The notes under the pieces: model-generated
The model's input: the letters and a program-made list of their open reading frames with translations, nothing else
Told to the model about the DNA's origin: nothing
Database searches by the model: none
Shown here: positions 2,218-32,440 of the stretch, piece by piece
Layout: each line of letters opens with the position of its first letter
How positions within the stretch are numbered: the stretch's first letter is position 1
Made by a program: the position numbers and the translations under genes
Assembly: GCA_020724525.1 (NCBI GenBank)
Contig: DYGU01000004.1
Coordinates: 1 to 35,099, forward strand
Direction of reading: 5' to 3'
Length of the DNA: 35,099 nt
Source: Dehalococcoides mccartyi
GTDB taxonomy: Bacteria; Chloroflexota; Dehalococcoidia; GIF9; DYGU01

Positions 2218-2330
2218 TAATCTCGGCTGGAAATTTTAACCTTATTTTACCACAATTCAAGCATAAATAGGGGGTTGCTAAAAAGTCCTCATGTCTTTCC
2301 AAAGTAAACCTATGCTTAACCCGTCTTTAA

Positions 2331-2370
2331 ATTCGGGGCCCCCTGAAAAACGAAGTTTTTCAGGGGTTTT
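2331..2370. repeat. 12-3-12 hairpin element, copy 1
   Basis: CCCCTGAAAAAC (2340-2351), loop GAA, GTTTTTCAGGGG (2355-2366): a perfect 12-bp stem with a 3-nt loop. It is immediately preceded by GGGG (2335-2338) and C, so the CCCC arm could alternatively pair with the upstream G-tract. A near-identical copy in the opposite orientation lies at 32345-32380. Just upstream, at about 2268-2290, AAATAGGGGGTTGCTAAA resembles the outer end of the CATTGCGAG elements elsewhere in the window. It lies between the divergently read corA and zinc-ribbon genes. Confidence 0.8.
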
Positions 2371-2399
2371 AAATAGTCATTGTTAGCCGGTTCCACCCC

Positions 2400-2428
2400 T
2401 TGACAAACTGCCTAATTGGTGATACATT
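2400..2428 (+). promoter_or_regulatory. Sigma-70-type promoter for the zinc-ribbon gene
   Basis: A perfect -35 TTGACA (2400-2405), a 17-bp spacer and a -10 TACATT (2423-2428). The start codon it would serve (GTG 2481) lies about 50 nt downstream, with AAAGGAGG at 2464-2471. Confidence 0.7.
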
Positions 2429-2480
2429 TGTTTCACGAACACTTGGTCATAAAATGCTAAAAGAAAGGAGGTTTATCGGG

Positions 2481-2750
2481 GTGCCAAGTATAAAGGAGTT
2501 ACTGGGGTGTCCTAAATGTGGCTGTACTATTTTACCGGATGCTATTAAATGCCCTAATTGCGGCACGACTTATGATGACAATGGGACAGGGAATGTGGTC
2601 GATAAGATTACTTATTCTCCCCAGCCCGGGATAAGGGAAATAGGCATTAAAGCCATAGTAGCTTACTATCAGTTTACTTGTCCTCATCATGGCAGAGTTA
2701 ATGTTAGGGCTACTGTTATGGCTCCAACTATTAAGTGTCCCTTTTGCTAA
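2481..2750 (+). CDS. Small zinc-ribbon protein
   Basis: An 89-residue protein starting at GTG 2481. This start is chosen because AAAGGAGG (2464-2471) sits nine bases upstream and a good promoter ends at 2428; the reading frame is open further upstream to 2400, but that stretch holds the promoter. The sequence contains CPKCGC near residue 10 and CPNCG near residue 25, a double-cysteine zinc ribbon. A second metal-binding set is at the C-terminus: CPHHG near 70 and CPFC as the last four residues. No catalytic motif is visible. Function unknown; a regulatory or nucleic-acid-binding role is possible but unsupported. Confidence 0.7.
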   Translation: MPSIKELLGCPKCGCTILPDAIKCPNCGTTYDDNGTGNVVDKITYSPQPGIREIGIKAIVAYYQFTCPHHGRVNVRATVMAPTIKCPFC

Positions 2751-26205: not shown

Positions 26206-26347
26206 TCCCAAGCGTAGCGAGGGAACTCAAGGGAATTGTTGAGATTGCCACGCCTCCTACACCCAGCCGAATCTGCGATTCGTCTGGGAACCCGGGGGTC
26301 CCCACAAAATCATAGATTTTGTGGGGTGTTTTCGGCTTGCAGTGACA
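26206..26347. repeat. Composite repeat: palindromic element in reverse with a nested hairpin
   Basis: Read on the minus strand it begins TGTCACTGCAAGCCGAA and ends in GAGGCGTGGCAATCTCAA. Two hairpins are visible: CCCAGCCGAATC-TGC-GATTCGTCTGGG (26262-26288, one mismatch) and CCCCACAAAATC-ATA-GATTTTGTGGGG (26300-26326, perfect). The second interrupts the otherwise continuous match to the element at 29044-29160. It fills the gap between the TrkA and HIT genes (26182-26364). Confidence 0.75.
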
Positions 26348-29043: not shown

Positions 29044-29160
29044 CGTCATTGCGAGCCGAAGGAGTTCCCTGGGTTCCCAGCCGAATCTGCGATTCGGTTG
29101 GGTGTAGGAGGCGTGGCAATCTCTTGAGATTGCTTCGTCAGTATGCTCCTTGCAATGACA
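29044..29160. repeat. MITE-like element, copy D, with a 12-3-12 hairpin
   Basis: Ends CGTCATTGCGAG (29044 on) and CTTGCAATGACA (to 29160). Inside is CCCAGCCGAATC (29076-29087), loop TGC, GATTCGGTTGGG (29091-29102), preceded by GGG-TT. The right flank continues AGTTTGAGTTAATAAAC. It begins three bases after the hicB stop. Apart from it, 29042-29266 holds no gene. Confidence 0.8.
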
Positions 29161-32339: not shown

Positions 32340-32440
32340 AATTACCCCTGAAAAACTAAGTTTTTCAGGGGACCCCGGATTTAGTTTCATTTTAAGCGGG
32401 GTCCCCCATGAAAAATTCGCTTCGTTCTTTTTCAAGAGGC
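32340..32440. repeat. Head-to-head hairpin elements between hsp20 and lon
   Basis: First unit: CCCCTGAAAAAC (32345-32356), loop TAA, GTTTTTCAGGGG (32360-32371), perfect 12-bp stem. Read on the minus strand it matches copy 1 at 2331-2370. Then GACCCCG (32371-32377) pairs with CGGGGTC (32397-32403), and a second, imperfect unit follows: TGAAAAATTCG..CGTTCTTTTTCA (about 32409-32436). On the minus strand the first hairpin may terminate hsp20 transcription. Confidence 0.7.

Follow-up and report, generated by a model that had tools for sequence, protein, structure and literature searches.

Four short hairpins in a single stretch of DNA, each with a 12-bp stem and a 3-nt loop and with stems that differ among sites, raise the question of what keeps the arms of such structures complementary while their sequences diverge. 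The stretch that we analyzed (the window) comprises 35,099 nucleotides, contig C2:1-35099 of a genome of 1,336,744 nt (~1.34 Mb) in 25 contigs. A first-pass annotation of the window had proposed that the hairpins form one family of fixed geometry in which structure rather than sequence is selected, and that they might act as a switch or mark the activity of a REP/Y1-type transposase.

Four hairpins of the window and a genome-wide family

All four hairpins are present in the window at the coordinates first proposed for them (Table 1). The structures at 2340-2366, 26300-26326 and, on the minus strand, 32345-32371 are each a perfect 12-3-12 hairpin, and that at 29076-29102 has 11 Watson-Crick pairs and one G.T. 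The stem varies among the sites, as had been claimed; because those at 2340 and 32345 are the same (CCCCTGAAAAAC), there are three stem types at the four sites and not four. A G-tract lies 5′ of the C-tract, and next to it, at every site (in order of position along the window, GGGGC, GGGGGT, GGGTT, and GGGGT).

The gene neighbors of the sites are unrelated to each other (corA; a trkA-like gene and a HIT gene; a hicB-like gene; lon and hsp20). The A1 copy lies between corA (minus) and an ORF at 2400-2750 (plus), i.e., between divergent genes; its upstream segment is common to seven other copies, the loop being GAA in this copy and three others and TTC in four. The double hairpin is found in the gap between the TrkA-like gene (plus) and the HIT gene (minus). 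The hairpin at 29076, located downstream from the HicB-like antitoxin gene, has lost its type B partner and sits inside a GAGAGCGTTTAGCAAC...GTCATTGCGAGCC... repeat. The fourth hairpin lies in the hsp20-lon gap, 28 nt 5′ of the lon start codon.

Table 1. Features of the hairpin family in the window
Feature	Positions	Strand	Sequence or composition
Type A1 copy	2277..2372	+	~60-nt conserved upstream segment GTCCTCATGTCTTTCC...TCTTTAAATTC, tag, hairpin, then TTTTAA
Type A1 tag and hairpin	2335-2339 (tag), 2340-2366 (hairpin)	+	GGGGC; CCCCTGAAAAAC-GAA-GTTTTTCAGGGG
Head-to-head double hairpin	26262..26326		Type B′, spacer, type B
Type B′ hairpin of the double	26262-26288	-	CCCAGACGAATC-GCA-GATTCGGCTGGG, 11/12 pairs
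Spacer of the double	26289-26299		AACCCGGGGGT
Type B hairpin of the double	26300-26326	+	CCCCACAAAATC-ATA-GATTTTGTGGGG
Single type B′ hairpin	29076..29102	+	CCCAGCCGAATC-TGC-GATTCGGTTGGG; tag GGGTT at 29071-29075
Type A hairpin	32345..32371	-	CCCCTGAAAAAC-TTA-GTTTTTCAGGGG; tag GGGGT on minus strand
Second inverted repeat	32368..32406		GGGGACCCCG (32368-32377) / CGGGGTCCCC (32397-32406), overlapping a hairpin arm of 32345

An alternative pairing of the G-tract with the C-tract, which had been taken as a hint of a switch, is unsupported at the first three sites because it needs a loop of 1-2 nt and because the predicted fold (sites 1-3 as DNA; sites 1 and 2 as RNA) is the 12-3 hairpin. Only at 32345 is there competition for the GGGG arm, from the second inverted repeat.

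The same geometry stands out across the genome. A model-free scan finds 40 perfect hairpins whose stem is exactly 12 bp and whose loop is 3 nt, compared with 0.3 expected from order-3 Markov simulations; at the neighboring stem lengths with this loop there are seven (11 bp) and three (13 bp), and other loop lengths are far rarer. At least 12 stem sequences occur among the perfect 12-3-12 hairpins. Their inner end, AAA[TA]C-NNN-G[TA]TTT, is almost invariant, the outer half is variable, and the loop is free. The pairing also holds in a test that is not circular: By searching with a 9-base 5′ motif alone (CGGGG[TC]CCC, CGGGTTCCC or CGGGTACCC), without preselection of hairpins, we find that 35 of 50 occurrences are followed by a 12-3-12 arrangement with 10 or more of the 12 pairs formed, and none of eight alternative geometries accounts for more than two. 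In an alignment of 15 distinct hairpins there are changes on both sides at eight of the 12 pairs; the percentage of paired positions in that alignment is given by construction, since the sequences were chosen as hairpins. The proposal of a single family that keeps its geometry while its stems vary is upheld.

A covariance model, as suggested in the first-pass annotation, gives 153 matches on both strands of the genome, which collapse to 79 distinct hairpins; nine or more pairs are formed in 73 of these. It finds matches in relatives as well. Among the 876 pair cells of the 73 hairpins, 830 are Watson-Crick, 23 are G.T, and 23 are other mismatches. Eight of the 73 lie within crude ORF calls and the remainder are intergenic. 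The association with gene ends that had been envisaged is not seen, convergent gaps showing no enrichment (eight of the 65 hairpins outside genes, versus 100 of 701).

Anatomy of the unit and its insertion sites

In a unit of the family, the 12-bp hairpin with its 3-nt loop is preceded by a tag, in most cases GGGGT, GGGGC, or GGGTT. Many hairpins are paired head to head with different stems, typically tag to tag around ACCCCGGGTT, as in the CCCCACAAAATC hairpin (reversed) followed by ACCCCGGGTT and the CCCAGCCGAATC hairpin; 19 of 54 units contain two hairpins. Three single hairpins (C22:16591, C19:25810, and C4:23453) are chimeric, joining the left arm of one hairpin to the right arm of its partner. 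These look like collapsed pairs, and a related genus offers a comparison at an orthologous locus, where one genome (G013) has the pair and two others (G021 and G066) have the collapsed form. Among the copies that persist are collapsed chimeras whose stems are mismatched. At C13:44498 a hairpin resembling the family stands between the 23S gene and a tRNA gene, and it has a counterpart in G006 (L127:139-171); since the position is the same in two families of the order, this would be an old, vertically kept copy.

Several copies can be compared with the site lacking them. The 23S rRNA gene of the genome (3083 nt) carries a 75-nt double hairpin that is absent from all 10 relatives aligned across the position, and further genomes match both flanks of the site without the insert. 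This gene also holds a second 12-3-12-like hairpin, TCCAGCGAAATT-GAA-AATTTGGCTGGA (L096:6860-6915, minus), where relatives have an unrelated variable hairpin. A type A hairpin occurs in frame in the formate dehydrogenase alpha gene (C1:19173-21821, minus): The insert has the form CTAATAAA-[34 nt]-CTAATAAA, with an 8-bp direct repeat, and adds exactly 14 codons. The 14 residues are absent from 17 homologs in the same order, and the three solved homologs among the alignments listed are also shorter at this position.

Other copies are nested. Inside another palindromic element, the empty site GAGGC-TTTA-GCCTC (C24:82898) has a filled counterpart, GAGGC-TTTA-[double hairpin]-TTTA-GCCTC, and in a related genus filled CCCA-ATAAA-[pair]-ATAAA-TTGGGC compares with unfilled CCCAATAAATTGGGC. 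Depending on the genome, an orthologous locus of a related genus is occupied by a double hairpin, by collapsed chimeric singles, or by another module, or it is empty. In the genus of G013 (L181, L182, L184-L189, and L202), one orthologous locus was noted to contain a MITE-like element, GGCTGTTTAA...TTAAACAGCC; its inner module is swapped from genome to genome and can be a double hairpin, a single one, or a GTCATTGCGAG-like repeat. G063 and G064 lack the element.

Four of 29 independent units (the collapsed set) are flanked by direct repeats of 6 bp or more, where 0.87 are expected (P = 0.0065), and repeats of at least 5 bp flank seven of the 29, where 3.15 are expected (P = 0.03). Some B units have a 5-bp repeat, TTCTT, that is part of an outer repeat and is thus not counted as independent support. 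Repeat length ranges from 4 to 8 bp and many copies have no repeat at all; in view of this variable length we speak of direct repeats rather than of a fixed target-site duplication.

Comparison of these filled and empty sites shows that the hairpins are mobile DNA. We identified no mobilizing enzyme for the family, and this counts against the explanation that we favor below. The ORFs between pairs of neighboring units, judged by reading, look like ordinary genes together with a CRISPR array, with no transposase among them. In principle, replication slippage on a remote template, and not transposition, could also give rise to short inserts flanked by repeats.

Loop inversion, stem covariation, and the preferred reading

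Within stem classes, the loops occur as reverse-complement pairs: TTC/GAA, ATA/TAT, TGC/GCA, TTT/AAA, TGT/ACA, and AGG/CCT. Altogether, 59 pairs of copies have reverse-complement loops, compared with 20.4 under a null of shuffled loop columns (none of 5000 shuffles as high); plain reversal of the loop without complementation gives no pairs in the same test. In individual cases the orientation of the loop is fixed by the flanks. Two near-identical stretches of ~200 nt on contig C16 have loops CCT and AGG, along with two substitutions, two single-base gaps, and divergence at the end. The eight A1 copies require three to four changes between TTC and GAA on a flank tree that is weakly supported. 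Two copies of another repeat, in G028 and G038, have CTC and GAG. Outer palindromes also occur with the loop in both orientations (GAGGC-TTTA-GCCTC at C24:82898 and GAGGC-TAAA-GCCTC at C24:92294).

A polymerase that switches template between the arms of an inverted repeat inverts the spacer and homogenizes the arms (PMC8604942), and the process has been put forward as a way in which paired stems arise and are kept (PMC8794818). The loop inversion, as read from the sequences, points to such a signature. It shows arm exchange by a mutational mechanism, so that compensatory changes in the stem need no selection at the RNA level. Since the loops flip and this mechanism is known, we infer that the stem covariation is probably produced by the same template switching. 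The claim that structure is selected is therefore not supported by the covariation: The pairs do covary, but the inversion provides a route to this at the level of DNA, and covariation is then no proof of selection. The hairpins may loosely be called a replicative signature, in the sense that their loops invert as in DNA template switching and not as the mark of a REP/Y1 transposase. Base-pair covariation is the standard proof of a selected RNA structure. Here it is accompanied by recurrent loop inversion, and a DNA copying mechanism can therefore yield it without selection; the family offers a natural benchmark for tools that take covariation as a sign of function.

We consider it probable that the hairpins are a mobile, dispersed, and non-autonomous REP-like palindromic repeat, often dimeric, in which template switching within each copy inverts the loop and copies arm changes. 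Copies move as DNA, by something other than the Y1/RAYT gene found here: Single and double hairpins have entered the 23S rRNA gene, the reading frame of a protein gene, where the frame is kept, and repeats of other kinds, several of them with short direct repeats. DNA polymerase would switch template between the two arms of a copy. This would invert the 3-nt loop, an inversion that is visible in the sequences, and, to judge by these flips and by what is known of template switching, would also copy changes from arm to arm, so that stems diverge and yet stay paired.

A more specific reading, which we regard as possible but doubtful, is that the bare hairpin of ~34 nt is itself mobile in Chloroflexota by a non-Y1 route; the 12-3 geometry would be the substrate rule of the machinery, with loop inversion as a by-product. 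Candidates for the route would be an unrecognized hairpin-acting enzyme or replication-based insertion via folded single strands. The dispersed REP-like repeat with template switching that we prefer is a very small mobile unit without a known transposase. It can enter rRNA genes as well as protein genes, the latter in frame, and it is found in several of the phylum's lineages.

Selection on an RNA-level structure (a regulatory hairpin, a switch, or an mRNA stabilizer), with pairing kept in the RNA, appears unlikely to us. The loops are unconserved and invert wholesale, copies occupy gene gaps of every kind as well as a protein gene and an rRNA gene, and chimeric copies survive with mismatched stems. 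Rfam, above its gathering cut-off, reports only one tRNA in the window and no family at six loci. These observations stand against the strong covariation, the stable predicted RNA folds, and the position of one copy 5′ of lon, all of which would suit an RNA function. The G.T pairs would suit it as well, amounting to half of the mismatches (23 of 46), a share to be read with the tolerance for G.T of the covariance model by which the hairpins were found.

The genome does encode one RAYT-like protein (C5:12233-12940, minus; L028:1198-1908), whose gene overlaps the start of an rsmI-like gene; it matches PF01797 (E = 2.2e-20) and scores 72 bits against NCBIfam REP_Tyr_transpos, under the cut-off of 80. 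That the hairpins are GTAG-type REP elements mobilized by this RAYT/Y1 protein is nonetheless very unlikely. Among 60 relatives, RAYT genes co-occur weakly with hairpins (seven of 24 genomes with hairpins versus three of 36 without; P = 0.07, Fisher's test), but, across the phylum, 21 of the 24 genomes that carry hairpins lack Y1_Tnp, among them some with 16-20 hairpin matches, and the nearest homolog of the RAYT gene belongs to a hairpin-free genome (G046). The 13 RAYT-homologous sites (our own plus 12) have no hairpin of the family within 1.5 kb, where the loci extended so far, and the sole covariance-model match in 41 kb around these sites is poor (12 bits). In addition, some inserts bear flanking direct repeats, and no Y1 transposase is known to generate these. 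A hairpin with a 5′ tag and head-to-head dimers are REP features (PMC3733652); the tag, however, is GGGG(T) and not GTAG, and known RAYTs recognize a GTAG tag in single-stranded DNA (PMC8266576). The suggested REP/Y1 transposase is thus nearly refuted as a general explanation.

We give still less credence to intrinsic (rho-independent) terminators of like shape. A pattern scan does score the sites at 2340, 26300, and 32345 as terminator-like, and GGGG-TTTT ends most A1 copies, but the T-run is missing from many copies, the 2340 copy lies between divergent genes, and convergent pairs are not enriched. The copies within the 23S rRNA and formate dehydrogenase genes, both of which need read-through, cannot be strong terminators. 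Finally, the chance resemblance of unrelated hairpins is practically excluded by the excess over simulation, the motif-only test, and the common tag, inner AAA[TA]C-NNN-G[TA]TTT, and flanks.

Known systems, relatives, and neighboring repeats

By its general features the family is a REP-like palindromic repeat: a short palindrome in high copy number, mainly extragenic, with head-to-head dimers. It departs from the GTAG/RAYT class in two defining features, having GGGGT, GGGGC, or GGGTT as tag and no RAYT gene flanked by hairpins. Similarities to the GTAG and CGTC REPs (PMC3733652) include a short hairpin tagged on one side, a copy number in the tens with most units extragenic and some intragenic, head-to-head dimers including heterodimers of different stems, and several stem families per genome; CGTC REPs, like the hairpins here, are without an associated transposase. 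The differences are the GGGG(T)/GGGTT tag, the constant 12-bp stem and 3-nt loop (4-nt in some relatives), the variable and inverting loop, the lack of a RAYT partner, and the direct repeats at some insertions.

Three further systems invite comparison. Rickettsia palindromic elements (PMC10969869) also enter protein genes in frame, of which there is one clear case here; they measure ~150 bp, whereas this insert is 34 nt plus an 8-nt repeat; the likeness is one of insertion behavior. Mitochondrial double-hairpin and repetitive hairpin elements (PMC2800124) occur as single and double hairpins with conserved stems and variable loops, have no known enzyme, and insert, like the 23S copy, in variable parts of rRNA genes, being retained in the RNA as that copy may be; they belong to organelle genomes and are unrelated in sequence, and thus only work alike. 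The likeness to MITEs lies in the direct repeats and in the nesting of some copies in 100- to 250-bp elements with terminal inverted repeats (e.g., GGCTGTTTAA...TTAAACAGCC). Apart from its palindrome, however, a hairpin unit shows no clear terminal repeats, and the ORFs read between neighboring units revealed no insertion sequence that could be its parent. In the literature searched, which leaves out most subscription journals, we found no description of this hairpin family, nor of loop inversion in any REP-like family.

Matches to the covariance model occur in 24 of 60 genomes of the order, in 25 of 294 of a class sample, and in 21 of 301 of a phylum sample; the model was seeded with the stems of this genome, so other stems would escape detection. 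Identical stems (CCCCTGAAAAAC, CCCCACAAAATC, and CCCCACGAAATC) are found in other orders and classes, and some relatives have 12-4-12 hairpins. The double-hairpin pattern, with any outer stem, matched one of 84,980 species genomes besides our own, a Dehalococcoidia bacterium, and no contig of a viral collection; the class and the phylum name Chloroflexota are taken from this relative. Together, the pattern and model searches show a narrow distribution for the double form with the ACCCCGGGTT spacer and a broad one for the single hairpin.

Other repeats were seen along the way. A second abundant palindrome family, ACCCTCACCT..CCTCTCCCT-TCA/TGA-AGGGAGAGG..AGGTGAGGGT, has stems of 9-27 bp and dozens of copies (e.g., C12:29578, C4:59339, and C16:46644, all outside the window), its middle varying with pairing kept. 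A structured leader, TGACAGATATCGTC...CAATAARCTGTCATGGGG...CATTATGG...AAGGAGGGTT, without an Rfam match, is repeated 5′ of genes in L010, L012, and L028 (L028:204-346, minus). A CRISPR-like array at C16:1750-4290 contains about 35 copies of GGAAACAACCTAATCCTCGCCAGGGGACTCCTA; family hairpins (C16:55, 4293, and 4487) come immediately after the terminal repeat, where a stretch of ~200 bp is duplicated. In G018, one similar CRISPR-like repeat is likewise followed by a hairpin (L112).
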